Of a stretch of 46,109 nt of DNA, positions 7,993 to 41,765 are shown one piece after another. The position numbers and the translations under genes were made by a program. The stretch lies in IMG/VR virus record IMGVR_UViG_3300036859_000070, positions 1-46,109 of that record; one strand, 5' to 3'. Positions within the stretch are counted from its first letter, which is position 1, and every line of letters begins with the position of its first letter. This DNA is from a virus. A model generated the notes under the pieces. It was not told the DNA's origin. It worked only from the letters and a program-made list of their open reading frames with translations, and made no database searches.

Positions 7993-8655
7993 TCAGGTGC
8001 GGGCTTGCGCCAGACGCTTTTGAACCCCACTGGGCCCCTCCGATAGGTAGATGTCGTTCACGTCCATACCCGTGGGCATCTTGATCACGTTCACCCTGAC
8101 CTCCTTGGCCAAGAACTTGCCCAGCTTGTAGCCCGCGTCGTCGCCGTCGGCGAAGAGGTAGAGCTGGCTGAAGTCGTCCAGGCAGAGGTTGAAGTGGTCC
8201 TTCCAGTTCGCCACGCCGGGCACCCCGATCGCGGGGAGCCCGCACATGGACAGAGTGATCGCGTCGATCTCGCCTTCGGCGATGCACAGGAAGTCCTCAT
8301 CCGTGCCCAGCGCGGGCACGTTGTAGAGGTTGGTGCCGACGTTCTCGTGGCGCTGGTACTTGCGGTGATACTCGCCCTGCTGCTTGCAGTCGTGGGCCTG
8401 AATGCACCGGAAGGTGAAGTTCACGACCCCCGCCCTGGTCAGGTAGGGGATCGCCAGGCGACTCGCGAACCGCTCATCACCCGGCTGCGGGTTTCGTACG
8501 CTGCCCAGGCGGAACCCAGCGGCGACCTCGGGGCCGATCCCCCGCCGCAGCAGATACTCCTGGGCGTAGGTATCGCTGCTCAGATCGCTCTGATACTGCG
8601 ATGCCGCTCGCTCGAACAATCTCTGTTGCTCGACGGTAAGCGCCCGTACGGTCAC
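7993..8655 (-). CDS. TOPRIM-domain primase subunit, 220 aa
   Basis: The second half of a DnaG-type primase. The TOPRIM motif FLCIAEGEIDAITL (residues 122-135, catalytic Glu) and LYLFADGDDAG (166-175, metal-binding Asp) are intact, with VPGVANWKDHF between them. The N-terminal 115 residues match the region after the zinc domain of phage primases. Start: GTG with GGAG 4 bases upstream. It overlaps the zinc-domain gene by 179 bases in another frame; a +1 shift would join them. Makes RNA primers at the fork, presumably with the ATPase at 9585. Confidence 0.85.
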   Translation of the reverse strand: MTVRALTVEQQRLFERAASQYQSDLSSDTYAQEYLLRRGIGPEVAAGFRLGSVRNPQPGDERFASRLAIPYLTRAGVVNFTFRCIQAHDCKQQGEYHRKYQRHENVGTNLYNVPALGTDEDFLCIAEGEIDAITLSMCGLPAIGVPGVANWKDHFNLCLDDFSQLYLFADGDDAGYKLGKFLAKEVRVNVIKMPTGMDVNDIYLSEGPSGVQKRLAQART

Positions 8656-8842
8656 AGTTCTCCATCAGCATGACCAGGTGCACCGCCGTTCCTCCGGCTT
8701 GGCACGAATGACAGAAGAAGACGCCCTTCTCCGCGTTCACGCGCATTGAAGGGCGTCGGTCCCCATGGACCGGGCAGCAGGCCATGGCCTCGCCCCAGCG
8801 GGGCCCCTTGACTTCCACTCCGTAGTGGAGGAGTACCGGCAC
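8477..8842 (-). CDS. Primase zinc-binding (CHC2-type) subunit, 121 aa
   Basis: It contains the DnaG-like zinc ribbon: MACCPVHGDRRPSM (residues 20-33) and VFFCHSCQAGGTAVHLVMLM (41-60), giving Cys22/23, His26, Cys44 and Cys47. This module recognises template DNA in primases. The GTG at 8842, 11 bases after the previous stop, is the best available start but has no clear ribosome site, so the true start may be a rare codon upstream. The tail overlaps the TOPRIM gene out of frame. Together the two genes replace one full-length primase. Confidence 0.75.
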   Translation of the reverse strand: MPVLLHYGVEVKGPRWGEAMACCPVHGDRRPSMRVNAEKGVFFCHSCQAGGTAVHLVMLMENCDRTGAYRRATEIVRASGIAVSERSEQRYLRPGVSAAAGDRPRGRRWVPPGQRTKPAAG

Positions 8843-8853
8843 CAGCCAGGGAC

Positions 8854-9249
8854 TCAGTACTCCCGGAGATTCATCAGAGTCACCGCGTCTGCGAGGTCCA
8901 TGCGCACCCATACGTCCTCCATCAGACCGATCGCGAGAAAGTCCATGGGAATGTGCACGTCCCACTCCGCGACGGGCCTGCGCTCGACGCGGACGACCAG
9001 GAAGTAGAACTCGACCGACGCGTTGAACGCCTCGGTCACGGTCTCCTCCCGCCACTTGGCGATCCGGTTGGCCCGGTCGCCCTTGACCTCGATGACCACG
9101 CCGGGGATCCCGGTGATGTCGCCCTGGTCGGCGGAGCCCTTCAGGCGCCGCCGTTCGGCGTGCGGGTACCCGTGGTCATTCAGGTACCCCACGACCATGT
9201 TCTCCGTCTCGCGCCCCCGCGCCTTCGCGCGGGTCTGCGGGGTGCTCAC
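8854..9249 (-). CDS. PD-(D/E)xK nuclease, Holliday-junction-resolvase-like, 131 aa
   Basis: GTG start with a GGAGGG ribosome site 7 bases away. The nuclease core is complete: RGRETENMVVGYL (Glu15), GDITGIPGVVIEVKGDRAN with Asp44, Glu54 and Lys56 (the D-x9-E-x-K signature), and a following helix. Size and motif spacing resemble archaeal-type resolvases and VRR-type phage nucleases. It probably resolves branched DNA before packaging or during recombination. It lies beside the primase genes. Confidence 0.75.
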   Translation of the reverse strand: MSTPQTRAKARGRETENMVVGYLNDHGYPHAERRRLKGSADQGDITGIPGVVIEVKGDRANRIAKWREETVTEAFNASVEFYFLVVRVERRPVAEWDVHIPMDFLAIGLMEDVWVRMDLADAVTLMNLREY

Positions 9250-9409: not shown

Positions 9410-9597
9410 GACGCTTCGCAGTGCTTCATGTGCTGCTCCGCAGCGAGCTGGGCCATCTCCCAGTGCTGGTATCCCCCGTGAGCCACGAAGTGGCTGTGCC
9501 AGGGGCACCAGTGCTTCCAGCTCCAGGTGTCCAGGCCCTTGTAGACCTTCGCCCTGGGGCAGAGCGGAAGGTCGCGCGATTCGGTCAACGCCACCAC
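9406..9597 (-). CDS. Small Trp/His-rich protein, 63 aa
   Basis: GTG start inside the end of the ATPase gene, 13-base overlap. The centre is unusually rich in Trp, His and Cys (WSWKHWCPWHSHF), then a helix with YQHWEMAQLAAEQHMKHC. The Cys/His spacing could form a zinc site. Function not recognised. Confidence 0.65.
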   Translation of the reverse strand: MVALTESRDLPLCPRAKVYKGLDTWSWKHWCPWHSHFVAHGGYQHWEMAQLAAEQHMKHCEAS

Positions 9598-10403
9598 TGA
9601 TCGTCCTCCTCTCCTTGGACTGAACCGCCGTAGACCGGCTCGATCCAGTCCCCCACCTTGGATCGCTCCGGATCCCAGGTCATCCGGAACCGGTTCTCCC
9701 CGCTCTTCTTGCTGGGCCCGAACCGGTTCTTCACGCAGGCGGCCCAGAAGCCGCCCGTCTGGTCCTGCCCGAAGGTCACCATCAGCGCGGGCTGCGCTGA
9801 GAGCTTGCCCATGACGTCACCCCGACTGGGGGTGATCCGGGATTCCGGTATCCCTTCGGTGCAGTGGTGGACCAGCAGCACGCAGGCGTTGGTCTCGCGC
9901 GCCAGCACCTTGGACTGACGCAGCACTTCGCGCAGCGTGGCCCACTCGTCCTTTCCGTCGTGGGAGACATCCGAGAGGATGTCGATCACGATCAGATGGG
10001 GCCACTCCCCGTACGCCTCCAGGTAGGCGTACGAGTTGAGCCAGATGTCATCAAGCGTGGGATTCGGGTTGAACTGCCACTTCAGGTTGTCGCGCAATGG
10101 CCGCAGCGCGGCTGCGGCGTTGGCAGGCTCGGAGGCGATCCACGCCTCCGCCTGGTCCGTGGTCCGGTTGGTACGGATGGCGATCAACCTCTGGGCGATC
10201 GTCATGTCATCGCTGTCCGAGCTGAAGACCAGCGTCGGCACGGCCATGTTGATGATGGCGTTGAGCGCCACCATCGTCTTGCCCATGCCAGCCACAGCCG
10301 CGAACAGCGCCACGTTGCCTTTGCGCAGGAGCATCTTGCGCGCGCTCCACGACGGAAATGGCGGAGGCAGGGGCTCGGCGCTGAGCGAGCCCCTGCGAAT
10401 CAA
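9585..10403 (-). CDS. RecA/RepA-type replicative ATPase (AAA_25-like), 272 aa
   Basis: Walker A AVAGMGKTMVAL (residues 36-47), Walker B HLIVIDILSD (135-144) and a sensor-like VLLVHHCTEG (175-184) define a RecA-fold ATPase of the RepA/KaiC helicase type. It lies upstream of the primase genes, so it probably supplies helicase or loader function at the fork. No ATG or GTG fits the 5' end: a TTG at 10403 is used, and an ATT at about 10418, 4-5 bases after a GGGGG ribosome site, is an alternative. The domain itself is secure. Confidence 0.82.
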   Translation of the reverse strand: MIRRGSLSAEPLPPPFPSWSARKMLLRKGNVALFAAVAGMGKTMVALNAIINMAVPTLVFSSDSDDMTIAQRLIAIRTNRTTDQAEAWIASEPANAAAALRPLRDNLKWQFNPNPTLDDIWLNSYAYLEAYGEWPHLIVIDILSDVSHDGKDEWATLREVLRQSKVLARETNACVLLVHHCTEGIPESRITPSRGDVMGKLSAQPALMVTFGQDQTGGFWAACVKNRFGPSKKSGENRFRMTWDPERSKVGDWIEPVYGGSVQGEEDDQWWR

Positions 10404-12146: not shown

Positions 12147-12493
12147 TGCCGTCTCCTCTCCATGTCCTTCTCGAAGCCCTCGCGCAGTGCCGCGAGGAAG
12201 TCTGCCTGGTCGCCTTCGCGGATACCGGTACTGAACTCCAGGTAGGCCGTCTTGGTGTAGCTGAGTTCTTCGGTGTCCAGCAGGCCCCCCTTCCGCAGGG
12301 CGGCGATCTCCGCGCGAAGGGCTTTGCCGATGGCCGCCTTGGCGGCCTGCGCCTGCCGCTCCGCGCGGCGCTCCTCCTCCCGGTAGTACAGCTCCCGCTG
12401 CTCGCGCCCTTGGCGGGCCCAGAAGCTCTCTTCGTCGGCGTAGTACTCCGGCCAGCCGAAGTGCTCAGAATGGGGCGGCGTATCTTGGGTCAT
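12095..12493 (-). CDS. Charged coiled-coil protein, 132 aa
   Basis: The start MTQDTPPHSEH is chosen over an upstream ATG because GAGAGG lies about 10 bases before it. Residues ~25-65 are a long Glu/Arg/Gln/Ala helix (ELYYREEERRAERQAQAAKA), probably a coiled coil, followed by a second helical region. It overlaps the exonuclease gene by 29 bases. No family recognised; it may be an accessory to its nuclease neighbour. Confidence 0.68.
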   Translation of the reverse strand: MTQDTPPHSEHFGWPEYYADEESFWARQGREQRELYYREEERRAERQAQAAKAAIGKALRAEIAALRKGGLLDTEELSYTKTAYLEFSTGIREGDQADFLAALREGFEKDMERRRQCGGSSPLSQHGWLRGY

Positions 12494-13334
12494 CCGGGTC
12501 AAACCTCTCCGAGAGATGCCCCCCGTTGGCATAGCAGGCTTCCTGCACGTCGCACAGGAAGCACCCGTCCCCCACGTGGGCGTTGAAGTTGCCCGCCTTG
12601 ATCTGCGCCCACGCCCGGCCGTACGTCATGCCGACGTACTCAGGCGTGAAGATCGTCAGATCGAACGGCTCCGACGGGGCCGCCTTGCGGTTCATGAACG
12701 GCACACCCCACTGCACCTGGATGCCGTACTTCTGCGCGAGCAGAGCGGCGTACGTACCGAACTGCGCAGGCGAGTTCGGCTTGCGGGTGCCCGTTTTGAT
12801 ATCCACGATGGTCAATTTGCCCAGGTTTGGGTCATAGAAGACCCGATCCAGGTAGGCCTTGATCTCGACTTCGCATCCCGGCAGCTTGCCGGAGATGTCC
12901 AGCTCGATGGCGGCTTCGCCGTCCGGCGTAACCCAGATCTCCCAGGGGGAGCGCTCGCGCCAATCGATCCACGCCTGGACGTACCCCAGGCCGTCGGCAC
13001 GCCACTCCTCGACGCCCTGCTTGGTCTTGCGCCACCGGTCGCGGTTGGCGTCCTTGGCGTCCAGCTCCGCGAGCTGAGCGTCGAAGGTGGCATTCCATGC
13101 CGCTTCCAGGCCAACCGCTGGGATCTCTCCGCGATCCCAGCCTTCGGTGACCTCGTGCACCGCCGACCCGCCCGCCAGCCATAGGGCTGGACGGGTAGGG
13201 GCCTTGGCGATGCGGGACAGAAAGTAGGACTTGGCACAGCGCTCCAGCGTGTCGCGGGCGCTGTAGGAGATGTGGCCGGGAAGCTCAAGGAGCTTGCCGA
13301 CCACGCTCTCAGCCTGCGGTTTCCCTCGGGACAT
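12465..13334 (-). CDS. Cas4/RecB-type exonuclease with probable 4Fe-4S cluster, 289 aa
   Basis: The PD-(D/E)xK core is clear: GSAVHE (residues 56-61), YLDRVFYD (161-168), LTIVDIKTG (174-182) and QFGTYA (191-196). Cys33 near the N-terminus and Cys258, Cys261, Cys267 near the C-terminus (C-x2-C-x5-C) reproduce the split four-cysteine iron-sulfur arrangement of Cas4 and AddB nucleases. AAGGA precedes the ATG, which overlaps the WhiB gene by 26 bases. A role in end resection or recombination is likely; there is no CRISPR context. Confidence 0.85.
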   Translation of the reverse strand: MSRGKPQAESVVGKLLELPGHISYSARDTLERCAKSYFLSRIAKAPTRPALWLAGGSAVHEVTEGWDRGEIPAVGLEAAWNATFDAQLAELDAKDANRDRWRKTKQGVEEWRADGLGYVQAWIDWRERSPWEIWVTPDGEAAIELDISGKLPGCEVEIKAYLDRVFYDPNLGKLTIVDIKTGTRKPNSPAQFGTYAALLAQKYGIQVQWGVPFMNRKAAPSEPFDLTIFTPEYVGMTYGRAWAQIKAGNFNAHVGDGCFLCDVQEACYANGGHLSERFDPDDPRYAAPF

Positions 13335-15482: not shown

Positions 15483-16397
15483 TCAGGCATCCTCTCGGGG
15501 GGACTTGATCGCGGTACGCGGGTGATCCACCACCTCTGGCAGCGGATCGCTGTAGGCGAATCGGAGCACGTTCATGTCTTCGCCGAGGGCGAAGCCGTTC
15601 CACGCCTTCGCGAGCAGGGCGTAGTTGACTGCTACGGCCGCAGCCCCGCGCTTGACGTTGACTCCCGTGACCAGGAACTTCCTGCGAAGGTGCCAGGCGG
15701 GATCGGTCTGGTCGATGTTGGCACCAGTGGTGACCTGCTCCAGCCAGTTCTCGATCTTGTTTCGGTACGGCGTGCGGGCTGCCTGCGCGAGGACGGCGGC
15801 GTGAGGGCCCATGGGGGCGCCACCCAGTCGCGCGGCTTCGTGCAGCTCGGAGGCGTACCACTCCAGTTCCGGCCAGCCGTGGAAGGTCTCCAGAACTTCT
15901 TGATTGGAGATCCGGCTGTACCGGGGCACGCCATAGCGGTCATTGTCCCCGAGCGCCGCAAGAATGCGGGCGCCTGAGGCGAGGTGAGTGGCGTACTTGA
16001 CGCGCATCAGATGGGCCGCCGTGCGGCTGTACCCCTGGTCCACGTACTCGAAGATCTCCCGGGGCTCGTTCGGGAAGATCCACATCTCCAGCGTGTGGTT
16101 GCCGTTGGCCTGCGCCTTCAGGCGGTGCTGAGCGGAGATGATGTAGCCATCAGTGTCGAAGATGTACCCCTCAGGGGTGCCCGCGCGGAACAGGCCCTCA
16201 TTCATGAGGGCCTGGTACCTGCTCGCGCGGGCAGCGCTCAGCGGCCTGTTCTTCGGGTGGTTCCGGTACGACAGCCAGTCGCTGGCCATCTCCGGGGTCA
16301 CGATGAGCTTCTGGGGCTCCGACGGGAGCCTGTACTTGCTGTTCGCCGGAACGAGAGCATTCTCGTCATCCTCCGGCGTCCAGAGGGTGGATGCCAC
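15483..16397 (-). CDS. ParB/sulfiredoxin-fold-like DNA-associated protein, 304 aa
   Basis: GTG start after GGAGAGGAACC. Residues ~28-105 carry a ParB/Srx-like pattern: ITVSP-style opening (LIVTPEMASDWL), NRPLSAARASRYQALM, DTDGYIISAQHRLKA (in place of the usual G-Q-H-R) and FEYVDQGYSRTAAHLM. The C-terminal ~150 residues are helical. Proteins of this kind in actinophages are little characterised; binding or nicking of DNA is an inference from the fold. Gene order places it between two HTH-type genes. Confidence 0.6.
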   Translation of the reverse strand: MASTLWTPEDDENALVPANSKYRLPSEPQKLIVTPEMASDWLSYRNHPKNRPLSAARASRYQALMNEGLFRAGTPEGYIFDTDGYIISAQHRLKAQANGNHTLEMWIFPNEPREIFEYVDQGYSRTAAHLMRVKYATHLASGARILAALGDNDRYGVPRYSRISNQEVLETFHGWPELEWYASELHEAARLGGAPMGPHAAVLAQAARTPYRNKIENWLEQVTTGANIDQTDPAWHLRRKFLVTGVNVKRGAAAVAVNYALLAKAWNGFALGEDMNVLRFAYSDPLPEVVDHPRTAIKSPREDA

Positions 16398-16400
16398 GCT

Positions 16401-16416
16401 GGTTCCTCTCCGATGG
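16401..16416 (-). promoter_or_regulatory. Leader motif CATCGGAGAGGAACC upstream of a start
   Basis: The 15-base string CATCGGAGAGGAACC, including the ribosome site, occurs here and again before the AAA+ gene (18617-18631), on the same strand. It could be a shared operator or translational leader. Confidence 0.5.
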
Positions 16417-16426
16417 TTTGTTCGGA

Positions 16427-16597
16427 TCACACGGCCGCGCGGGCCAGGTATGCGTCCAGGTCTGCCTTCTTGATCCGGTAGGAACGGCCGACGCGCACGG
16501 CCGACAGCTCGCGCTGTTCGATCAAGCGGTAGATGGACATCGGCGAAAGCTTGAGCTGGTCGGCGACGTCCCTGACCTTCAGGTATTCGTTCTCCAT
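16427..16597 (-). CDS. Excisionase/MerR-type helix-turn-helix protein, 56 aa
   Basis: A short gene with AAGGAG before the ATG. The sequence is a textbook HTH_17/excise domain: YLKVRDVADQLKLSPMSIYR (helix-turn-helix), LIEQRELSAVRVGRSYRIKK (wing) and DLDAYLAR at the end. Such proteins act as excisionases or small repressors. No integrase or attachment site is visible in the window, so a transcriptional role is more likely here. It lies between the ParB/Srx-like gene and a small unknown gene. Confidence 0.85.
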   Translation of the reverse strand: MENEYLKVRDVADQLKLSPMSIYRLIEQRELSAVRVGRSYRIKKADLDAYLARAAV

Positions 16598-16600
16598 GCA

Positions 16601-16945
16601 TTACTCCTTGTCTTCGGGCAGGCGTTCCTGCCCGACGGGGATCTTCCCTAGGTGCTGGTCCAGGTAGTGGCCGATGTCGCGCCGGTGTACGAGCGTGACC
16701 GTGTACCCCTCCAGGGCCAGCGTGAGCGGGTCCCGGTTGGTGGCCCATTGGCAGAAGCGCTTCAGGGCTCGCTCGGGAACGGCAGTGCGTGAGCCCACAT
16801 AGCCCCGCGCACTGCCGTTGGACAGGTCGGAGCGCTCCACGTTCATGAAGCTCACGGGGTAGCCCTTGGGGTCACGAATGACCCATTCTGTCTGGTCGTA
16901 CGGCACCTGTTCGCCGTCGATACCGACGGTCAGCCGGGCAGCCAT
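16601..16945 (-). CDS. Unknown protein, 114 aa
   Basis: The start MAARLTVGIDG follows GAGAGGAGGAG. It looks like a small alpha/beta protein: beta-rich at first (GEQVPYDQTEWVIRDPKGYP), then a helical middle (PERALKRFCQWATN) and a strand-helix end (YTVTLVHRRDIGHYLDQHLG). Its stop is 3 bases from the HTH gene, so both are probably cotranscribed. No family recognised. Confidence 0.7.
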   Translation of the reverse strand: MAARLTVGIDGEQVPYDQTEWVIRDPKGYPVSFMNVERSDLSNGSARGYVGSRTAVPERALKRFCQWATNRDPLTLALEGYTVTLVHRRDIGHYLDQHLGKIPVGQERLPEDKE

Positions 16946-22280: not shown

Positions 22281-22284
22281 GTTG

Positions 22285-22301
22285 CTCTCCGTTCGGAGTA
22301 G
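22285..22301 (-). promoter_or_regulatory. Start-associated repeat, copy 3
   Basis: CTACTCCGAACGGAGAG, 4 bases before the ATG at 22280. The inner base change (C to A, T to C) leaves the CTCC/GGAG pairing intact. Confidence 0.65.
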
Positions 22302-22870: not shown

Positions 22871-22873
22871 GTT

Positions 22874-22890
22874 CTCTCCAGTCGGAGTAG
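22874..22890 (-). promoter_or_regulatory. Start-associated repeat, copy 4
   Basis: CTACTCCGACTGGAGAG, 3 bases before the ATG at 22870, with TTGATCAA just upstream. Confidence 0.65.
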
Positions 22891-22952: not shown

Positions 22953-23393
22953 TCAGGCGTTGCGGTGCTCCGCATGACGGAGCGCCTGCCAGCTACCGCG
23001 ATTGAGGTACCACTGCGCGCCGATCATGTCGGCGACATCGAACGTGTGGAACTCGCACAGGCTCACCCCGATCACCTTTCGCTTGAGTGATTCGCCTCCG
23101 CGACGGCCTCGGATGACAGGCTGGTCGTCGTAACGGCCGTAGACCAGCCTGCGTACCTCGCCGTCACACTCGGGCGTGCTTGAGTGCGGCATCCGGCACG
23201 CGCGTGCCAGGGACACGGCCGGGAACAGGCCAGGAAACCATTCCCGTGCGTGCTCCTCGCACGCGTACTCCGACCACTGGAGATCATCGGTGATGGTGTG
23301 GACCGCGTCGCGGGCACACCATGAGCACCGCCGGTCGGTCATCACGCCGCCGGACGGGTACAGACCAGTGAACGGGGTCAGGGTGTAGCTCAT
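22953..23393 (-). CDS. Zinc-binding-type protein, 146 aa, first gene of the leftward block
   Basis: ATG preceded by CTACTCCGAATGGAGAG; an internal MTDRRCSWC is a possible second start. CSWC near residue 23 with CEEHAREW about 20 residues later suggests a C2-CH metal site; further Cys and His occur in CRMPHSSTPEC and LCEFHTFDV. A beta-rich, basic middle (YGRYDDQPVIRGRRGGESL). It faces the large hairpin region, so it is likely the first early gene. Confidence 0.68.
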   Translation of the reverse strand: MSYTLTPFTGLYPSGGVMTDRRCSWCARDAVHTITDDLQWSEYACEEHAREWFPGLFPAVSLARACRMPHSSTPECDGEVRRLVYGRYDDQPVIRGRRGGESLKRKVIGVSLCEFHTFDVADMIGAQWYLNRGSWQALRHAEHRNA

Positions 23394-23398
23394 GATCG

Positions 23399-23415
23399 CT
23401 CTCCATTCGGAGTAG
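23399..23415 (-). promoter_or_regulatory. Start-associated repeat, copy 5
   Basis: CTACTCCGAATGGAGAG, 5 bases before the ATG at 23393, the most upstream copy. Confidence 0.65.
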
Positions 23416-24092
23416 TCCGATACGAACCCTCAGGGGTGATCCCTGAGGGCACCGACGGACGCGGGGGGCACTTCGGTGCCCCCCGCAACGTCATGCGGCC
23501 CGCCATCATGCGGGCCCGCACCCCATCACTCTCGCCATGGGGTGTATTAGCGTCTGCTCAGCCACGGGAGACACCGATACGCGGTGTCCTGTGCCCTTGT
23601 GGCGCTCTCGCAGACCCGCTGTGACCCAACGGGTAGGGGGCAGCCCGCGAGGCTGCCTGTCGCCCGTACGTGACCTCTGTACGGGTAGGGGAAGGATCCC
23701 TGCCTGCCTATGGCAGCAGACATGATCATTCGTGCATCGTAAGGGCCCGCTGTACCTCGCCCCCGGGACAAATGTCTCTGCCTCCCGGTAAGCGGGGAAC
23801 GTCGTTCACCATGGTGGTTTGCCCCCGGACCCTCGCCCTAGGCACCTGCCACGGCCGCCGCTCCCGCGTCAGCCCTGTATGCGTCGCTATTGAGTTCACA
23901 AGCACGTCATGCGCTCCGTTGGACGGGCATCTCATCCCGCTTCCCGTGCGCTCCCTTACCTCTCGCGGGAGCGACCCTCGGAGGGGGTCTCGCTCCCGGC
24001 TGCTCCCTGGACCCTCAACCCCTCTCGGAGGGGGAGCTGTCCGGTGCTGCTGGGCAGGTGGTGCAGTTCGAGACTCCCCGTAGGAGCTGGGG

Positions 24093-24350
24093 CAGTCAAC
24101 ATCTTTTGATGTAAAGGAATGGCAAAGGATACAGATGTACAGGTCAGAGCATTGATCATACTCATGGGTAAGGAGCTATCTCATGATGTGAACTGATGTG
24201 GAGTACACAGATCAATGGGAAATCAAGATCAGGAAGGGCTCGCCGGACGGGCCGGACACGGCCTCCGTAACGGAGGTGATGCCTGGCGCACCTGGTGTGC
24301 GGCAGGGGCATGACAACGGCATGGATGGTCAAGATCAAAAAAAGCAAGGA
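24093..24350. other. AT-richer, mostly hairpin-poor core, candidate origin or promoter zone
   Basis: Inside the hairpin array, most of this stretch is clearly richer in A and T than the rest, with GATGT at 24108, 24134, 24185 and 24195, TGATCA near 24154, and AAGATCA twice (24235 region and 24330 region). Only a CATC-TTTT-GATG loop and a small CCTCCG hairpin near 24265 interrupt it. It could be an unwinding region or the divergent early promoter zone; I cannot name specific boxes. Confidence 0.4.
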
Positions 24351-25333
24351 AGCGCATAGGCGGGGGACTGCACCGCCAGTCCCCCGCTGTCGGCGGTGCC
24401 GACCTTGCCGAGACATCGGATCGCGCGGAGCGCATCCGACGCTCTGCCCGTGCCGACGACTGCTGTCGTCTTGCACGGGAAGGGCTGTCCTCGGGCCGGA
24501 CGGGCCCGAGGGTATCCGGCGAGAGCTGGGCCTGCCCCTGAGGGCAGGAACAGCTCTGCCCCTGACTGCTGGGGCGACGGCCACCACCGGAGGTGGTGAC
24601 CTAGCCCCGCTCTCTCATCGCGCACCCGCGCGTCCCATCCGGCAGCGGTGTGCCGGATGGGCGTGGTGCGGTGCACCACCGCAGGCCACCGGCCTGCCCT
24701 GTGCGGTGCGGTGCACCGCTGTGCCCCCCCTTGAGAGACACTCGGCGACCACGTGAGTGGTCTAGACCCGAGTGTCTCCGTCGGTGCATGGCACCGACCA
24801 CACTTACCCCTGGTAAGGGCCCCTGACCTGGGCTCTTTGCGTCCGCAAAGAGCTAGTTGGCAGTGCCACGCACTGTCAACCCATCGACCCGGGGGTGTTA
24901 AACCCCCTGGTCGATGCCATGGATGGTCTCTCGCTCGGGATTCTTCGCAATCCCGAGCTTCGACCCCATCCCTTACCGCGTCATACGCGCGCCCGTCCGC
25001 TAGGGCGGCCGAACGCGCTTTGCGCGACCTTTACGCGCGCGGTGCGCGCCCCCGCCACCGGCGGGCATGGGTAGCCCCCGCAGGAGCTTGGACCTGGGCA
25101 TTACTCCAGGTCAGCGCGGCATGCAGAGCAGGTACTTGAGACGTTCATTACCCAACCTCGGTGGACCCCCACGGCGCTCCGGCCTCGGGTCGTCCTGCTC
25201 TTCGTGGATTCTTGGCCCGGCTGTATCCGGGCACATTTGCTCGACCCCATCTGACGGGCCGACCCCGGTTACTAGCCGGAGACCAGGGAGCGTGCTCCAC
25301 CTGGCCCCTCATTTCTACCAGCTCGTCCGAGAC

Positions 25334-25422
25334 GTCATACGTATAACCCCCTTGTAGGAACCTACAAGGATCGGGCCGGAATTTTGTAGGAACACACCAC
25401 TGGGGTCATACGTATGACCCCA
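25334..25422. promoter_or_regulatory. Paired palindromic operator-like sites before the first rightward gene
   Basis: GTCATACGTATAACCCC (25334-25350) and GTCATACGTATGACCCC (25405-25421) differ at one base; the second is the core of a perfect 22-base palindrome (25401-25422). Between them TTGTAGGAAC occurs twice (25352 and 25384), the first within a 9-bp hairpin (25350-25358/25361-25369). Two copies of two motifs in 90 bases directly upstream of the rightward operon suggest a regulator-binding site. Confidence 0.6.
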
Positions 25423-25455
25423 GGAGACCTCCAGGACCATGGAGGGGTGATCGAC

Positions 25456-25719
25456 ATGGAGCGAGACCACTGCATCGGCCCCCACTGCACCCGGCGGCAC
25501 GACTTCCCGGATGGTGAGGGCGTTCTGTTCATGGGGGCCCTCGGGCCTGAAGACGGCGCGACCGTCACCTTTCTGCACAAGGAGTGCCAGCGGGACTTTG
25601 AGTCCTGCGCTGGCTGCACTGGCGTATCCCGCGCCGGGTGGCACCCCCTGGCCGATCAGATCCCCGCCGATCTGTTCGTCCACACGGACGGCTGTCCGAT
25701 GATTGAGTACTGGGCGTAG
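25456..25719 (+). CDS. Cys-rich zinc-binding-type protein, 87 aa, first rightward gene
   Basis: The start MERDHCIGPHC is chosen because GGAGGGGTGAT lies about 9 bases upstream; an in-frame ATG at 25414 lies inside the operator palindrome. Six cysteines in three groups (CIGPHC, CQRDFESCAGC, CPMIEYW) plus His residues suggest one or two zinc sites. It heads the packaging/structural operon behind the palindromic sites, so a regulatory role is possible but not shown. Confidence 0.68.
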   Translation: MERDHCIGPHCTRRHDFPDGEGVLFMGALGPEDGATVTFLHKECQRDFESCAGCTGVSRAGWHPLADQIPADLFVHTDGCPMIEYWA

Positions 25720-26393: not shown

Positions 26394-28325
26394 ATGGCAC
26401 GCATCTACGTCTCCAAGGCTGGCGGCGGCACGGTCTACGACAGTGCCAACGCCAAGAAGATCTTCGTCTCCGCCATCCGCTCCGGCTTCTCCGTCGAGCA
26501 GGCGCTGAAGTCCTGCGGCAAGGCCGAGAGCACCTACAGCTACTGGCGCAAGACCGATCCGGACTTCCGCAAGCTCGTGGAGGAGGTTCGCGGCACCCAG
26601 GCGCAGCGCCGCGCGACCAACGCGGTGGAGATCCCGGATTTCCCGGAGTTTTCCGAGAAGTACTTGGGTACCCAGATGTTCTGGCACCAGAAGCAGTGGT
26701 ATGACCTCCTGGAGGGCAGGGCCCCCCGGGACCTGCACGAGGCCCAGTTCTACATGCCCGGTGAGCCGGACATGGTCTTGATCAACACCCCTCCGGAGCA
26801 CAGTAAGTCCACGACGGTCACGGTCAACTACGTGACCTGGCGGATCTGCCAGGACCCCAACATCCGCGTCCTGATCGTCTCCAAGACCCAGGACATGGCC
26901 AAGAAGTTCCTGCTCTCGATCAAGGAGCGCCTGGCCGAGTCTGACACCTACTACGAGCTTCAGACCAAGTTCGGCCCGCCCGGCGGCTTTGCCGAGGGCT
27001 CCGCCTCCTGGACGGCCGACCGGATCTACGTCGCCGGGCGCGAGTCCGGCGAGAAGGACCCCACGGTCCAGGCTCTGGGCATCAAGGGCCACATCTACGG
27101 ATCCCGTGCCGACCTGGTGATCATGGACGACTGCGTCGATCACACCAATCACGGCGACTACGTCAAGCAGATCGACTGGATCCAGAACATGGTCATGTCC
27201 CGCGTCGCAGACGCGGGCGGCAAGATGATCATCGTGGGGACCAGGATCGAGACCACCGACCTCTACTCCGAGATCATGAAGTCCGAGTACTACGGCGAGG
27301 ACGCCTCGCCCTGGACCTACCTGACCCAGCCCGCCGTCCTGGAGTACGGCGAGACCAGCGCCGACTGGAAGACCCTGTGGCCCTTCACCAACCGGGCCCC
27401 GGTCTCCATCCAGGGCCGTCGCGTCCTGGAGGGCCAGGGCTGGCCGCAGGAGGGTCTGTGGCCGATGTGGAACGGCTCCGCGCTCGCCCGCAAGCGGGCG
27501 CGCATGTCGCCCCGCAACTGGTCGATGGTCTACCAGCAGGAGCAGGTCGCGGACGACCAGGTCTTCGCGACCAAGGACGTCATGGGCTGCATCGATGAGC
27601 AGCGCTATGCCGGGCGCCTGGTCGATGGCGTCTCCGGCCACCGCCGGTACGGCATGGAGGGACTGTTCATCGTCGCCGGGCTGGACCCGGCCGATGTGGG
27701 CAGCACCGCCGCTGTCGTGATCGGTCTGGACCGCCAGACCGGTACTCGGTGGGTCCTGGATGTCTACAACAAGCGGGGCACCCGCCCGCATGAGCTGCGG
27801 GAGCTGATCCGGTCCTGGACCGACAGGTACCGCATCGCGGAGTGGCGGATCGAGAAGAACGCCTTCCAGGGGTCGATCCTTCAAGACGACGAACTCAAGA
27901 CCTACCTGTACGGCCGTGGCTGCGTCATGACCGGCCACTTCACCGGCAGCAACAAGTACGACTCGAACTACGGCGTCTCCTCCATGGCGACGCTGTTCCA
28001 CAACAGCGCCGCCGGTCAGAACCTGATCAGGCTGCCGTCGAGGTACCAGTCCGAGGGCGCCCGCGCCCTGATCGAGCAGTTGTGCACCTGGAACCCGATC
28101 CCGGCCGGTACGCGCAGGCACAGCCAGGCCGGGCACTGGGACGCGGTCATGGCCCTGTGGTTTGCCGAGATCCGCTGCCGGGAGATGATGCAGGGGGAGT
28201 ACAGCGACTATCACCTCAGCTCGGAGTTCATCTCCGACCGTGACAACGAGAACCAGTTCGTCATAGACGTGGACTTCGCCATGTCCCAGGGGGGTATACA
28301 ACCCTGGGACGGGCGGCTTTGGTAG
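26394..28325 (+). CDS. terL: Terminase large subunit, 643 aa
   Basis: DNA-packaging motor. ATPase: a deviant Walker A NTPPEHSKSTT (residues 131-141), Walker B ADLVIMDDC (239-247) and coupling motif IIVGTRIETTDL (279-290). Nuclease: VAGLDPADVGSTAAVV with catalytic Asp431, a middle IEKNAFQG and a C-terminal HWDAVMAL. The first ~70 residues hold a helix-turn-helix-like part (QALKSCGKAESTYSYWRKTD) more typical of small terminases, and no separate small subunit was found. Ribosome site GAGGTAGGG. The portal gene follows after the lysin. Confidence 0.95.
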   Translation: MARIYVSKAGGGTVYDSANAKKIFVSAIRSGFSVEQALKSCGKAESTYSYWRKTDPDFRKLVEEVRGTQAQRRATNAVEIPDFPEFSEKYLGTQMFWHQKQWYDLLEGRAPRDLHEAQFYMPGEPDMVLINTPPEHSKSTTVTVNYVTWRICQDPNIRVLIVSKTQDMAKKFLLSIKERLAESDTYYELQTKFGPPGGFAEGSASWTADRIYVAGRESGEKDPTVQALGIKGHIYGSRADLVIMDDCVDHTNHGDYVKQIDWIQNMVMSRVADAGGKMIIVGTRIETTDLYSEIMKSEYYGEDASPWTYLTQPAVLEYGETSADWKTLWPFTNRAPVSIQGRRVLEGQGWPQEGLWPMWNGSALARKRARMSPRNWSMVYQQEQVADDQVFATKDVMGCIDEQRYAGRLVDGVSGHRRYGMEGLFIVAGLDPADVGSTAAVVIGLDRQTGTRWVLDVYNKRGTRPHELRELIRSWTDRYRIAEWRIEKNAFQGSILQDDELKTYLYGRGCVMTGHFTGSNKYDSNYGVSSMATLFHNSAAGQNLIRLPSRYQSEGARALIEQLCTWNPIPAGTRRHSQAGHWDAVMALWFAEIRCREMMQGEYSDYHLSSEFISDRDNENQFVIDVDFAMSQGGIQPWDGRLW

Positions 28326-31912: not shown

Positions 31913-32103
31913 TGGAGTGGTGGAACGAGTTCGGCGCGTACGTGATGGGCCTGGAGGGTTTTCCTGCCCTGGCGCACGACATGACGCACAATGGCCCCCG
32001 TGGCGATTTCGGGTACACGCTGACGGCGCTGATGAACAACACCGCCACCCCGATCGACCTGTACCCGCCTGACGAGCCCGACTTCTCGGGACTGGGGGGC
32101 TGA
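31912..32103 (+). CDS. Small acidic/aromatic protein, 63 aa
   Basis: The ATG lies in a TGATG overlap; a GTG 3 bases earlier is less likely. Trp, Tyr, Phe and His are abundant (MEWWNEFGAYVMGLEGFPAL), and the protein ends in a Pro/Asp tail. No family recognised; coupled to the 1640-aa gene. Confidence 0.65.
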   Translation: MEWWNEFGAYVMGLEGFPALAHDMTHNGPRGDFGYTLTALMNNTATPIDLYPPDEPDFSGLGG

Positions 32104-35100
32104 TGGGCTTCGGGAGCTGGCTCAGCGATGTCGGTGACAGCATCGCCACCGGCCTGCGGGCTGGGGTCAACACGGTCAACGCCCTGGACCCCTTCAACAA
32201 GATCCACTATGACGTGACCAGCGCCGCAGCCCCCGAGAAGGAGCTGCGGACCGCAGGCGTGGGCCTGGAGGCGTTCGGGGCCGGTACACAGTGGGTGCGC
32301 ACCAATGTGGTGTCGCACCCCATAAGCACGCTCCTACTTCAGGCCAAGCGTGCGGGCACCGATCCCGGCGTGTACTTTTCGACTGCCGACTGGTCGTCTG
32401 CGTGGAAAGCGGCCTGGAACGTCTCTCCCGGCCAGGCAGCCCTGCTGGGCCAGCAGTCGTTCCTCAACAACCCCAACGCCCCCCTGGGCGCGCAGCAGGC
32501 AGAGAAAGCCATCGCCTCGCCCCTCCAGTACTACAAGCCCGCCGCAGCGGATTTGCCCGCCGGGTTCGACGCCCTGCCCGAGGACGAGCAGCAGCGAATC
32601 CTCAGGGAAGCGGGCATGCCGGTCACCGGCAACCGTTACGTGGAGGAACTGCGCCAGAGCTCGACGTTCTACAAGAACGCCAGTGGCGTGCTGGACTTCA
32701 GCCTGGCCTGGTGGGCCGACCCCACCATCGTGGGCGGCAAGCTGGCCGTCGGCGCCCGTCGGGCACGGATGATCCGACAGCACGGCGCGCAGGGCTGGTC
32801 AACCGCTGATATCGACACGATTCTGAACGAATCGACCATGGTCAAGACTCAGAAGTACATCCTTGACAATCGGGACAACCCTCAGCTTCTGAACAACCTG
32901 CACTTCGCGGAGGACTCCGCGATGGGGCCGCGCTTCGGCCACATCGCCTCGCTGCTCAAGGACGAGGAGGAGGTCAATCTCTTCCTCCGCGTCGGCATGG
33001 GCGACCTCACGGCCATGGACCGCCTCATCGGCAAGAACAAGCTGGTCGAGGGCCGCCTGGCGCAGATGAACGACCGCATCGGCGGTCTGAATCTCATGCG
33101 CACGCGCTGGCTGCACAATCCCAACATCCAGGCGACGATCGATCAGCAGATCGCCGATCTTGAGGCGCGCATCAACGCCGACGACCTCATGAAGCTGCGC
33201 TACAGCGAGATCCTTGAGCATGGCGACGAGATCGACAAGATCAACCTCTCGCGCTGGGGATTCGCCCGCGCGGAGCAGAAGACCGAGGCGCAAAACGCCT
33301 ATCGCGCTGGTGCCGCATACGGCTACAAGACCGAGCGCGAACGAGTGATCACGCCGGGCGTGCCGCTCATCTCCAGGGTCGGGGCGCCTTTGGCGACCCC
33401 GATCGACGGGGGCATGGTCAAGCAGCGCATCTGGGGCCTGGGCGACTTCTTCTCCACGCCGGTCACGGTGGTGCGTGCGCTCAAGGAGGCCAACCCCAAT
33501 GGGTGGATGCGCATTGACGACATCACCAAAGACTCGGTGGCCGAGCTGCGCGCCCACGTGGCGCGCATTCCGAACATCACCGCAGAGGCACGCCTGAAGG
33601 CGGTCAACGACTACCTGAAGACCTCCACCGACGGTGAGCGCCTGGCATACCTGACCGACCTGGACAACATGGCCGTGGCGAAGATCGCCGAGAAGCACGG
33701 CATGGACCCCAAGGCTGGCCAGGAGCTGCACAAGAGTTACGTCATCAAGCGCCGGAAGGAGGTGGAGAACGCCAAGGCGTACGGAGCCAGCAAGAAGCCC
33801 GGCAGCACCAATGACATTCGCGTGGATGAGTTCGAGGACGCCGGTGGGCGCGTCGTCATCCACCCCCACACGGTGACCCGGTTGGCCAACACCCACGTCC
33901 TCACCCCTCTGGACGAGTTCGACAAGGTGCTGGCCCGGCACAGCTCCGCACTGTCGGCCCTGCGCGAGACGCGCGTGGGCAATCCCGACTGGCTGATCGA
34001 TGGCTCCGAGTTCCTGACCAGCCTGTTCAAGGTTTCTGTGCTGGCCCGTCTGGGCTACATCCCCCGCGTCATCGGCGATGACCTCGCCGGTCAGTGGTCT
34101 GCAGCGGGCTCCGCCGCCATGGCGGCCCGTATCGGTTGGGGCGTGCGCAACGGCGCCACCAACACCGCCCGCGCGCTGGCGTATCCCTGGCAGGCAGCCA
34201 GGGAGCAGGTGCAGCGCGAAGGCGTGAAGTACGCCGACGAAGAGATCAAGATCGCGGAAGCCCAGAACAAGGCGCTCCGCGCCCAGCTCAAGGGAATCCA
34301 GGCTTCGAACGCACGGGATCTCGCCCGCGCGCAGAAGAGGTTCACCCGCGCTGAGACGCGGTACCGGGCGCTCGACCCGGCGGATCGCAGCCCCAAGGCC
34401 CTGGCGGTCCGCCAGTACCACCAGCAGCAGCTCAGCCAGCTCCGTCAGGCCAATAGTCGCGTGGCGGCTGGCCCATCGGCCGGGCGCATGGCGCACGTGG
34501 CGCGGCAGGACCAGCGTATCCAGTACCTGACGACATACCGGGACCTCGCGCAGCGGAAGGCTGACGACCTGGCTAAGTGGCGCACGGTGGAGCGCCAGGG
34601 CGACAAGCCGGTCGTGGTTGACGGCATCACCTTCCCCGCCGCGTTCGGCGGCAAGGAGGGCGAGTACATGCACGCTCAGGTCTCGGCTGACGAGTCGATC
34701 GGCAACATCTTCGCGAGCAACAAGCAGCTCATGCATGGCAACCTCATGCGCTCCTTCGATCACGGCGGACGCGTGATCCGTACCGCCGAGGACGAAGAAC
34801 TGCACGCCCAGTCCTGGGCGCATGCGATCAACGCGCAGATCATGCAGGATCCCCTGGAGCGCATGGCGGTCCAGGGGGCCGACGTGACCACCATGAAGAA
34901 GTGGCTGTATCGCGATCCGGCCGGTAAGGAGTACCGGCGCCGCATCGGCCTGAAGCTGGCCACGCCGGAGGCGCTGGCACAGTCCGCCAAGCACGAGGTG
35001 GACGATCTCCTGCCGGACTGGACCATCCGGCAGGCCGCCATGGACGGCACGCTCACGCCGGAGTTCCTCAAGAAGGCAGTCCCCCGGCCGGTGGACCGGC

Positions 35101-37025
35101 CCGAGGTCCACACCGGGATGATCGGCGTTCAGGGTCAGGGTGGTTTCCAGCAGGGGCTGGACCGCATTCAGCAGAAGTGGTTCAACTTCGCCGCCACCAT
35201 CCCGTCGAACCGGATGAGCCGCCACCCTCTGTACAACCAGCTCTACGAAGGTCACACCAAGATCATTGCCAAGTCGCGCAAGCTCCAGGGCGGCTTCACG
35301 GTCTCCGATGTGGACCAGATGACCACCGCCGCCCGGCGGCTCGCGCTGCGCGACATGCGCAAACTCGTCTTCGATATCGCCCACCGCAGTGACGCCGCAG
35401 CGGCCATGCGCTTCATCTCGCCGTTCTTCTCCGCCACGGCGGAGTCGTTCCAGCGCTGGGGCCGCATCATCGCCGACAAGCCCCAGGTGGTCGGCTACGC
35501 GGCCAACTTCTTCAACGCCCCCATCGCCGCCGGGTCCATGCAGGACTCCGACGGCAACACCATCATGCAGGGCGGCTACCGCATGGTGAAGGACGCCAAG
35601 ACCGGCAAGTTCAAGAAGGAGCTGGTCCCCAAGGCCGAGCGGTGGATCGTGGGGCGCATGCCCCACTGGCTGGCCGATTCCCCGGTGGGAATCGCGCTGG
35701 GCGTGGAGCACTCCAGTGGCAACTTCGCCTTGAGCCAGAACAGCATGAACCTGGTGACCCAGGGAGATCCCTGGTTCAACCCGGGCGTCGGCCCGGTTGT
35801 TCAGATCCCGGTCAATGAGCTGGTGAAGGACAAGCCTTCGCAGGCCGAGACGGCCCGAGCCCTGGGGATTCTGCCCTTCGGCCCCCAGCAGGGAGGGGTT
35901 GTCGGCCGCACGACCGGGTTCGTCACGTCAGCGCCGATCAAGAACTTCCTGACCGCCTTCGACACCTCGGACGAGCGGTACCAGGCAGTCAAGCTCCAGA
36001 TCGTCCAGCGCGCCGCGTACGAGCACGACAATCTCGGTAAGCCGATGCCGTCAGCGCAGCGGATTGCCGACATGACCAGGGAGTACTGGCTTTTCAGCGC
36101 CGCATCGGCGTTCAGCCAGCCGATGGCCACCAAGCGCAAGGACGCGTTCCAGTTCTACCGGGACCAGTACAACAACCTGCGTCGTCAGGACCCGCAGAAG
36201 GCGGACCAGAACTTTCTGGACCGCTTCGGCGAGAGCTACTTCGTCTTCGCCCAGGCGCAGAGCCAGAACCTCACCGGCACCCAGGCCACCAAGCGAGCCT
36301 TTGAGCTGAGCCAGGAGTACGCCCCGCTGATCGCGGAACATCCCGAGCTGGGCGCCTTGATCGTGGGCCCGGAGGGCAATGGGCCCTTCAGCCCCGAGGT
36401 GTACTCCTACCAGCTCAACCATCCGGTTACCCCGGGTGGGTCCGAGATGCAGCGGACCAAGATGTCCGCTGATGAAGCCATGGCCGAGAATCAGCGCAGG
36501 CTGGGCTGGTCGAAGTACATGGCGCGGATGAACAGCCTCAACGCCAAGCTCACCTCCGCCGGGTTCACCTCGTTTGAGGACCAGGGGGCCGAGTCGCTCA
36601 AGCAGGACAAGCAGAACTGGACCAAGCTCTACGCCGAGCCGCTGTATCCGGACGGGTCTCCGAATCCGTACTACAACGACGAGTGGAGCAAGGACTTCTA
36701 CTCGTTCGACGTGCGCAAGAACGACCGTATGGTCGCCGCCCTGACCGATCTGGTGCGTTCGGATCTCGCCGATGATCCCCGCCGCACCGACCTGAGGAAG
36801 CTCCAGGAATACCTCGGTGGGCGCCAGCAGGTAATGGCGGAATTGAACGCCCGCGACGCTGCGGGCGGCGCCAAGATGCTGAGCGCGAAGGCCAACTCCG
36901 ACCTGTCCCTGCGGTGGGGACGATTTGTTGACGGACTGGTCGAATCGGACACTAACTTTGGGGATCTGTACCACCGGTACCTGTCCCGAGACCTTGGGGT
37001 TGAGGTTGTGGAGGAGGAGAGCTGA
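32103..37025 (+). CDS. Very large internal virion (ejection) protein, 1640 aa
   Basis: Over a tenth of the genome. TGATG overlap with the previous stop. Mostly helical, with a coiled-coil stretch at ~690-830 (EEIKIAEAQNKALRAQLKGI) and a conserved-looking block near residues 1060-1150 (MSRHPLYNQLYEGHTKIIAK; AAAMRFISPFFSATAESFQR). I see no transmembrane tape-measure pattern and no peptidase or lysozyme motif. In short-tailed phages such giants sit inside the head and are ejected to form the DNA channel; that role is inferred from size, order and absence of a tape measure. Ends VEEES. Confidence 0.72.
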   Translation: MGFGSWLSDVGDSIATGLRAGVNTVNALDPFNKIHYDVTSAAAPEKELRTAGVGLEAFGAGTQWVRTNVVSHPISTLLLQAKRAGTDPGVYFSTADWSSAWKAAWNVSPGQAALLGQQSFLNNPNAPLGAQQAEKAIASPLQYYKPAAADLPAGFDALPEDEQQRILREAGMPVTGNRYVEELRQSSTFYKNASGVLDFSLAWWADPTIVGGKLAVGARRARMIRQHGAQGWSTADIDTILNESTMVKTQKYILDNRDNPQLLNNLHFAEDSAMGPRFGHIASLLKDEEEVNLFLRVGMGDLTAMDRLIGKNKLVEGRLAQMNDRIGGLNLMRTRWLHNPNIQATIDQQIADLEARINADDLMKLRYSEILEHGDEIDKINLSRWGFARAEQKTEAQNAYRAGAAYGYKTERERVITPGVPLISRVGAPLATPIDGGMVKQRIWGLGDFFSTPVTVVRALKEANPNGWMRIDDITKDSVAELRAHVARIPNITAEARLKAVNDYLKTSTDGERLAYLTDLDNMAVAKIAEKHGMDPKAGQELHKSYVIKRRKEVENAKAYGASKKPGSTNDIRVDEFEDAGGRVVIHPHTVTRLANTHVLTPLDEFDKVLARHSSALSALRETRVGNPDWLIDGSEFLTSLFKVSVLARLGYIPRVIGDDLAGQWSAAGSAAMAARIGWGVRNGATNTARALAYPWQAAREQVQREGVKYADEEIKIAEAQNKALRAQLKGIQASNARDLARAQKRFTRAETRYRALDPADRSPKALAVRQYHQQQLSQLRQANSRVAAGPSAGRMAHVARQDQRIQYLTTYRDLAQRKADDLAKWRTVERQGDKPVVVDGITFPAAFGGKEGEYMHAQVSADESIGNIFASNKQLMHGNLMRSFDHGGRVIRTAEDEELHAQSWAHAINAQIMQDPLERMAVQGADVTTMKKWLYRDPAGKEYRRRIGLKLATPEALAQSAKHEVDDLLPDWTIRQAAMDGTLTPEFLKKAVPRPVDRPEVHTGMIGVQGQGGFQQGLDRIQQKWFNFAATIPSNRMSRHPLYNQLYEGHTKIIAKSRKLQGGFTVSDVDQMTTAARRLALRDMRKLVFDIAHRSDAAAAMRFISPFFSATAESFQRWGRIIADKPQVVGYAANFFNAPIAAGSMQDSDGNTIMQGGYRMVKDAKTGKFKKELVPKAERWIVGRMPHWLADSPVGIALGVEHSSGNFALSQNSMNLVTQGDPWFNPGVGPVVQIPVNELVKDKPSQAETARALGILPFGPQQGGVVGRTTGFVTSAPIKNFLTAFDTSDERYQAVKLQIVQRAAYEHDNLGKPMPSAQRIADMTREYWLFSAASAFSQPMATKRKDAFQFYRDQYNNLRRQDPQKADQNFLDRFGESYFVFAQAQSQNLTGTQATKRAFELSQEYAPLIAEHPELGALIVGPEGNGPFSPEVYSYQLNHPVTPGGSEMQRTKMSADEAMAENQRRLGWSKYMARMNSLNAKLTSAGFTSFEDQGAESLKQDKQNWTKLYAEPLYPDGSPNPYYNDEWSKDFYSFDVRKNDRMVAALTDLVRSDLADDPRRTDLRKLQEYLGGRQQVMAELNARDAAGGAKMLSAKANSDLSLRWGRFVDGLVESDTNFGDLYHRYLSRDLGVEVVEEES

Positions 37026-40547: not shown

Positions 40548-41690
40548 GTGACTACAGCAATGGAAGAGCAGTACGTCCCCGAGGACTTCCAGACCGAACT
40601 GGATCTGCCGACGGCGCAGCCGGTTGACCAGGCCGCACTGGGCAGCTCCAAGGCCGCTCTGACGCGCGCCAAGCTCGCCTCCCGGGCCGCAAAGAGCACC
40701 GTCTCGACGATCGAGCGGGCTCTGAAGCGGGAGGGCCTGTCGGCCAAGGGCAAGAAGGCGCTCCAGGAGCAGCTCACTCGCGCGCAGGCGTCGTATCAGA
40801 AGGCCGTCAAAGCCCAGACCGAGGCTCGGAACAAGGTCTACGAGACTGGCGGCGAGTACGAGAAGCTCCTGGAGGGAGCCAACCGGGACGCCTTTCTCGC
40901 GCTGCGGACCCTGTTCTCGGGGTTCGGCCTGGGCTCCCTGGCGGGCAAGATCTACGACTACGCCAAGCAGGGCTATGGCGCCGACACGATCTCACTACTC
41001 CTCCAGGACACCAATGAGTACAAGCAGCGCTTCGCCGGGAACGAGGCCCGCCTGAAGGCGGGTCTGCCAGTACTCAGCCCGGCTGAGTACCTGAGCGTGG
41101 AGAGTGCCTACCGCCAGGTACTCCAGGACGCAGGGCTGCCCAAGGGGTTCTATGACAACCCTGCCGACTTCCAGAAGTGGATCTCCTCCGACATCTCCCC
41201 CACGGAGATCAAGAGCCGGGTGGACATCGCCACCGCCGAAGTCTCGCAGTTCGATGACGTGGCCAAGCAGCAGCTTGCTCTCTTCTATGGCGTGGACGAG
41301 AAGTCCCTGGTGGCGTACGCCCTGGACCGCACCCGTGGCGTGGCCCTGCTCCAGAAGCAGGCCAGCGCCGCACAGTTCGGTGCCGAGGCAGCGCGGCGCG
41401 GGCTGGCCACAGACCGGACCCGGATGGAGGGCTACATCAGCCAGGGACTGTCCCAGTCCCAGGCTGCGCAGGGTTTCCAGATCATCTCCGAGGAGCTGCC
41501 GAACCTCACCGCCATCGCCGAGCGCTTTGGTACCACGTTCGGCCAGGTAGAGGCCGAGCAGGCGGTCTTCGGCACCTCCGCCTTCGCCGCTGAGAAGCGC
41601 AAGGGTCTGGCCTCGCAGGAGCGAGCCCTGTTCGGAGGCAGCCAGGGCTCCAGCGCGGCCGGGCTGTCGGCCGGGTATCGTGCGACGTAG
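40548..41690 (+). CDS. Internal virion-type coiled-coil protein, 380 aa
   Basis: The start is GTG with GGAGGGAGTGCT upstream, preferred over an upstream in-frame codon. Residues ~25-105 are coiled coil (SKAALTRAKLASRAAKSTVS). A block around residues 120-215 contains LLLQDTNEYKQRFAGNEARL and LPVLSPAEYLSVESAYRQVL, a pattern I have seen in ejection-type actinophage proteins. Helical C-terminus. Its stop codon overlaps the tRNA-Met 5' end. Probably the last ejection protein. Confidence 0.7.
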   Translation: MTTAMEEQYVPEDFQTELDLPTAQPVDQAALGSSKAALTRAKLASRAAKSTVSTIERALKREGLSAKGKKALQEQLTRAQASYQKAVKAQTEARNKVYETGGEYEKLLEGANRDAFLALRTLFSGFGLGSLAGKIYDYAKQGYGADTISLLLQDTNEYKQRFAGNEARLKAGLPVLSPAEYLSVESAYRQVLQDAGLPKGFYDNPADFQKWISSDISPTEIKSRVDIATAEVSQFDDVAKQQLALFYGVDEKSLVAYALDRTRGVALLQKQASAAQFGAEAARRGLATDRTRMEGYISQGLSQSQAAQGFQIISEELPNLTAIAERFGTTFGQVEAEQAVFGTSAFAAEKRKGLASQERALFGGSQGSSAAGLSAGYRAT

Positions 41691-41762
41691 CGGGGTAGAG
41701 CAGCTCGGTAGCTCGGCAGGCTCATAACCTGTAGGTCGCGGGTTCAAATCCCGTCCCCGCAA
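41689..41762 (+). tRNA. tRNA-Met (CAT anticodon)
   Basis: Good cloverleaf: acceptor GCGGGG/CCCCGC with an A1-A72 mismatch, D-arm GAGC/GCTC, anticodon stem GCAGG/CCTGT with loop CTCATAA, T-arm GCGGG-TTCAAAT-CCCGT. Anticodon CAT may be Met or, if modified, Ile. The anticodon stem lacks the three consecutive G-C pairs of initiator tRNA. No CCA is encoded. Its first two bases overlap the stop codon of the preceding gene. Confidence 0.92.
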
Positions 41763-41765
41763 CTC

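Follow-up and report, generated by a model that had tools for sequence, protein, structure and literature searches.

In integron attC sites and in the terminal hairpins of parvoviruses, it is the folded form of single-stranded DNA, not its sequence, that carries the function, and the concatemer junction of phage T7 gives rise to hairpin-ended processing intermediates. Very stable mini-hairpins are formed in DNA by C(GNA)G and C(GNNA)G. The telomeres of Streptomyces are built of palindromes set close together on a 3' overhang of ~300 nt, where Palindrome I is complementary to part of Palindrome IV, and hairpins II and III, which lie between the two, are closed by sheared G:A pairs (PMC4513846). 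In six telomere classes, all loops have a length of 3 or 4 nt, the most frequent being GAA, GGA, and GTA, while the stems are little alike (PMC8743542).

The window, that is, the whole stretch of DNA that was analysed, is a virus record of 46109 bases. Its terminase is ~51% identical to those of the cultured Streptomyces phages Immanuel3, FlowerPower, and Abafar of the Beephvirinae. A single clear tRNA gene (Met, 41689-41763) is present, where the Beephvirinae isolates have 14-22 at the same place. Ahead of the terminase gene lies a stretch free of genes, with the following parts and neighbours:

22953-23393, minus strand: first gene of the leftward operon, without a family match.
23427-23973, no strand assigned: left hairpin block, which precedes the leftward operon and is separate from the array.
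24096-24215, no strand assigned: AT-rich core (GC 0.40) to the left of the array, with the repeated motif TAAAG..GGCAAAG.
24355-24960, plus strand: hairpin array of ~18 perfect stems of 6-11 bp, with loops mostly of 3-6 nt.
24878-24916, plus strand: stem CATCGACC/GGTCGATG with inner hairpin GGGGGTGTTAAACCCCC around the conserved motif, from sequence and DNA fold.
24886-24903, plus strand: conserved motif GACCCGGGGGTGTTAAAC, one difference from the terminal-repeat motif of Immanuel3.
24925-24926, no strand assigned: predicted right end of the packaged genome, placed at TTAA + 28 nt from the isolates.
24933-24958, plus strand: hairpin GCTCGGGATTCTTCGCAATCCCGAGC of 10 bp, immediately to the right of the predicted end.
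25091-25130, plus strand: hairpin GACCTGGGCATTACTCCAGGTC, then AGCGCGGCATG.
26394-28325, plus strand: terminase large subunit, the first large late gene 3' of the array.

Perfect stems of at least 6 bp (loops of 3-14 nt) number 36 in 23300-25500, and 18 of them fall in 24360-24960, where the original prediction had seen about 17. The densest 700 nt, 24355-25054, hold 18 stems (at least 6 bp, loops of 3-8 nt), against a mean of 1.4 and a maximum of 3 in shuffles of the same segment; the fold z is -18 on the plus strand and -21 on the minus strand. Shuffles and relatives together rule out a chance origin. A coding gene is ruled out for want of a conserved frame, in keeping with the earlier view that the stretch holds no convincing one: between 23.4 and 26.1 kb, no open reading frame of at least 60 aa has a homologue in at least 3 of the 19 genomes compared. 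The AT-rich core was also rightly recognised and is a candidate promoter or origin. The two blocks described around it both exist but differ in kind, as the left block and its counterpart in the sister phage L007 share ~81% sequence identity and the right block keeps its structure only. Conserved sequence is nevertheless also found in the gene-free region, above all the motif at 24886-24903.

Both edges of the stretch carry further elements. The leader TACTCCGANYGGAGAG, which is able to form a small hairpin, stands directly before three starts of the leftward operon (22284-22300, 22873-22889, and 23398-23414, minus strand), against a chance expectation of 0.01, and also precedes leftward genes in L007. 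On the other side, the 10-bp palindrome CTGGGGTCATACGTATGACCCCAG (25400-25423) lies just ahead of the first small rightward ORF, with a second palindrome, ATACGTAT, ~70 bases upstream of it; these are possibly a promoter or operator.

Two terminase scans, the second of which used the L008 terminase as query and led to 72 loci, yielded ~40 related phage loci with the same element 0.3-2.3 kb before the terminase; a genome scan with the portal protein as query gave no matches. The structure of the array is conserved and its sequence is not. In L007, whose terminase is 88% identical to that of the window, the same array is built from altered stems (e.g., cctcgggccGGACGggcccgagg against cctcacgccGGACGggcgtgagg), and the GCTCGGGATTCTTCGCAATCCCGAGC hairpin has kept its loop while its outer stem pairs are compensated. 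Among 35 arrays examined, 34 hold 12-22 stems per 700 nt, where shuffles average 1-3; the exception, L076, has only 7 and its motif lies near the contig start. Helices retained in 22 aligned pairs carry 291 double Watson-Crick changes beside 46 G-T, 32 A-C, and 94 other combinations, a count in which, as in the other statistics on pairs, loops, and loci of the array, shared ancestry is only partly corrected. The proposal that selection acts on structure rather than on stem sequence is thus borne out, and no phage element of exactly such form was found in the literature searched, as had been supposed. The array is absent from L036, from the cultured Beephvirinae, and from more distant relatives. 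The hairpin and following sequence at 25091-25130 recur upstream of the terminase in L037, L077, and L082.

The key fact beyond the original prediction is the likely position of this element at a genome terminus, read from the direct terminal repeats of relatives. Such repeats occupy the same place before the terminase in Immanuel3, FlowerPower, Manuel, Stella, and other Beephvirinae. In the eight isolates checked they measure 253-276 bp in seven, with 396 bp in Abafar, where the edges are set differently, and in seven of eight the TTAA of GACCC..GTTGTTAA(A)C stands exactly 28 nt before the end of the repeat. The Immanuel3 motif, with up to 3 errors allowed, has a single match in the window; it lies at 24886 and shows one difference. 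Array phages carry TTGACCC..GTTAAA, and a hairpin usually stands at the corresponding distance, so that GACCC..GTTAA is common to both groups; the distance to the cut is fixed in the Beephvirinae isolates. Because of the motif at 24886 and the 28-nt TTAA spacing in the isolates, the right end of the virion genome is predicted near 24925, within the right part of the array. The location of the array at this predicted terminus is well supported by the comparison. With the predicted end as the point of alignment of the loci, the density of stems lies at 0.25-0.53 between about -600 (or -550) and +200 and declines outside this range towards the 0.08 of a coding control, and the array extends ~200 nt to the right of the end. 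In array phages the left edge of the terminal repeat is not recognisable by motif. The isolates differ from the array phages in having few, weak hairpins and no fold-back stem; as they carry the terminus motif and lack the array, packaging does not need the array.

Around the conserved motif, relatives form a nearly perfect stem, P1, of 13-20 bp, whose 34 distinct sequences differ between clades; the stem at 24878-24916 is its short counterpart in the window. Of 37 distinct sequences, 33 have as their longest stem near the predicted end one of 12-20 bp, against at most 10 bp in shuffles. The 3' arm of this stem stops 1-10 nt, mostly 3-6 nt, before that end, which would allow the 3' end to fold back. 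The window departs from this pattern, with a fold-back stem of only 7 bp and the short stem around the motif instead.

The composition of these stems bears on whether DNA or RNA is under constraint. The main rival to a DNA terminus is a noncoding RNA, large and structured in the manner of GOLLD and ROOL, that would be transcribed to the right from the AT-rich core and hold many hairpins and, on its 3' side, a multibranched domain. GOLLD and ROOL, large ornate RNAs, share with the array its size and complexity, its presence in phages, and the precedence of structure over sequence. The pairs of P1 in the 34 distinct sequences comprise 529 Watson-Crick, 0 G-T, 1 A-C, and 2 other pairs, and when G-T is permitted the best stems contain 26 G-T in 558 pairs, against 290 in 1012 in shuffles. 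Folded as RNA, the arrays have G-U in 5.7% of minimum free energy pairs on the plus strand and 4.5% on the minus strand, compared with 10.9% in both shuffles and tRNAs and 20% in rRNA windows. That G-T pairs are almost lacking counts against RNA, although selection for very stable RNA stems could also explain it, and among the kept helices G-T slightly exceeds A-C. The loops are strand-asymmetric, as an RNA would have it: GNA triloops number 71 on the plus strand and 26 on the minus strand, GNRA 17 and 1, and GNYA 30 and 16. UNCG loops (4 and 8) are not enriched. Folding is also slightly better on the plus strand in 26 of 35 loci, with the coding control showing the opposite; in the window itself the fold is more stable on the minus strand. 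The unpaired-looking conserved sequence of the putative 3' domain would likewise suit an RNA, but that domain coincides with the genome-end motif, and the window and four relatives have no match in Rfam even at a relaxed threshold, on which ground a known RNA family was rejected. A structured RNA is accordingly held to be unlikely, and the constraint probably acts at the level of DNA, judging from pairing and loop patterns.

The same strand preference is shown by the loops expected to be stable in DNA. Left of the predicted end, de-duplicated GNA and GNNA loops number 82 on the plus strand and 17 on the minus strand, and the preference per locus is for plus in 25 loci and for minus in none. 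To the right of the end the numbers are 13 and 7, and the difference between left and right bias is not significant (p = 0.12). Such a bias, together with the same placement in ~40 diverged loci and a fixed distance from stem to motif, speaks against perfect palindromes that are maintained by nothing more than template-switch repair of replication hairpins. Correction of this type does yield perfect arms, double changes, and no G-T, yet a functionless mutational by-product appears very improbable.

The array is thus real, widely conserved, and structurally constrained, with a terminus motif inside it. The reading put forward for it, at a probability of roughly 0.55, is a telomere-like packaging terminus of a linear double-stranded DNA phage genome, conserved in structure and acting as folded single-stranded DNA. 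The last ~570 nt before the predicted end (near 24925) would turn into a row of short hairpins when the plus strand is single-stranded. This would be the strand whose 3' end lies at the right terminus, and also the lagging-strand template of a rightward fork, so that on linear DNA it might persist as an overhang, or else become exposed in terminal-repeat duplication. It may become single-stranded through an unreplicated 3' overhang or through processing of the terminal repeat, and would then fold into the array, in most relatives with its extreme 3' end folded back. Folding could hide the overhang from nucleases, and the folded-back 3' end could be held ready for priming or packaging enzymes. 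In this manner the fold may protect the end and/or help to refill or duplicate it as the genome is replicated and packaged; the exact job would be end protection, patching, or terminal-repeat duplication. The last of these recalls the T7 junction, where palindromic DNA likewise lies near a direct terminal repeat and may have a role in repeat duplication, although the array is long and all its stem sequences have turned over. A terminus of this kind also resembles attC sites and parvovirus terminal hairpins in that folded single-stranded DNA would carry the function; it differs in context and scale, and there is no sign of a recombinase or Rep.

In form, the array is closely similar to Streptomyces telomeres, which share its dense palindromes, its 3-4 nt loops of GNA type, and its unlike stems (PMC8743542). 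Its commonest triloops are GAA (28) and GGA (20). The telomere hairpins lie on the 3'-ending strand, and the GNA/GNNA loops of the array favour the plus strand, which is 3'-ending at the predicted end. Pairing of the 3'-terminal segment with an inner arm around hairpins, as in the telomeres, is found in 33 of 37 array relatives and weakly in the window. The array differs in being longer (~600 nt), in belonging to a packaged phage genome with relatives whose terminal repeats are direct and not inverted, and in lying internally in prophages, with an end that is predicted, where the telomeres stand at a physical DNA end. Its sequence has no resemblance to the linear plasmid end compared, and in a rough comparison of six loci with few stems, the ends of host telomere plasmids were without a clear strand bias of GNA loops. 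None of the window proteins that were scanned in Pfam and NCBIfam matches Tap, Tpg, or another terminal protein, a function that host proteins may possibly supply. Because Tap/Tpg was not found, the end is predicted only, and the element is internal in prophages, membership among the telomeres is not claimed. It is a tentative suggestion, and a doubtful one, that these probably temperate Streptomyces phages have a true telomere at the packaged end, with a 3' strand that folds back and forms ~15-20 hairpins, many of them GNA-looped, and an end kept by fold-back priming or by end-patching through host or unknown phage functions.

Candidate users of a single-stranded DNA element are encoded in the window, namely the split primase and the RusA-like resolvase, both on the leftward arm with the helicase and the exonuclease:

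7993-9249 region, minus strand: split DnaG-type primase, with a Toprim ORF at 7993-8655 and a zinc-domain ORF at 8477-9055.
8854-9249, minus strand: RusA-like resolvase.
9585-10403, minus strand: DnaB-like helicase.
12465-13334, minus strand: Cas4/RecB-type exonuclease.

The two primase ORFs overlap each other (7993-9055, minus strand). On the same strand, a protein at 15483-16748, whose true start is probably near residue 115, occurs in 9 of the 12 array phages compared, and three Beephvirinae isolates all lack it; it has no family match in Pfam or NCBIfam, and by its appearance we take it to resemble ParB-like proteins.

These genes also invite the reading of the stretch as a replication origin or single-strand initiation zone, in which the phage helicase and split primase would read the AT-rich core and hairpins on the lagging template. 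The conserved repeats of the core to the left of the array, the presumed lagging-template position of the plus strand, and a set of scanned window proteins in which helicase and primase are seen and a DNA polymerase is not are all compatible with it. Multi-copy iterons and DnaA boxes were looked for and not found, the array is centred on the terminus motif and not on the core, and isolates with the same replication genes have no array, which makes an origin improbable. From the possibilities first offered for the hairpins, a single-stranded DNA element comes nearest to the evidence, and an insulator, a decoy RNA, or a set of small RNAs finds no support.

The structural operon encodes a 1640-aa protein (32103-37025) that is 29-30% identical to its Beephvirinae counterparts and has no recognised domain. 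Promoters of phage N4 carry C(GNA)G loops like those of the array, and the major capsid protein belongs to the N4-gp56 family; hairpin promoters for an N4-like virion RNA polymerase might therefore be imagined, with the very large protein as the enzyme. That protein matches no polymerase among solved structures, Pfam, or NCBIfam in sequence comparison, the isolates possess it without the array, and no promoter sequence is common to the stems. For lack of polymerase homology this candidate was rejected and is barely credible.

Hosts of array phages include Streptomyces himalayensis, S. composti, and Streptomyces sp. t39 and MP131-18, with the element lying internally in the prophages. In MP131-18 a serine recombinase (L191:11734-13752), whose ORF additionally has an IS4/5 transposase-like match, sits between the phage side and host metabolic genes; from its place at this junction the array phages are probably temperate. 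Many metagenome contigs start inside or near the array (L041, L044, L046, L048, L049, L054, L056, L067, and L092). Shared breakpoints as physical ends were rejected, since the starts vary between loci, and they probably reflect assembly failure at hairpins. That many contigs break here suggests that the element is under-represented in assemblies.

The array is nonetheless common in viromes, with ~40 loci from two terminase scans, and its prophages in Streptomyces isolates make it testable. A terminus conserved in DNA structure and not in sequence would be an unusual signal for packaging or replication, of a kind missed by sequence-based annotation. If the telomere reading is true, these phages would be a second user, independent or ancestral, of the Streptomyces telomere principle. 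Should the array work like the telomeres of its hosts, it would bear on the origin of Streptomyces telomeres and on the upkeep of linear bacterial ends.
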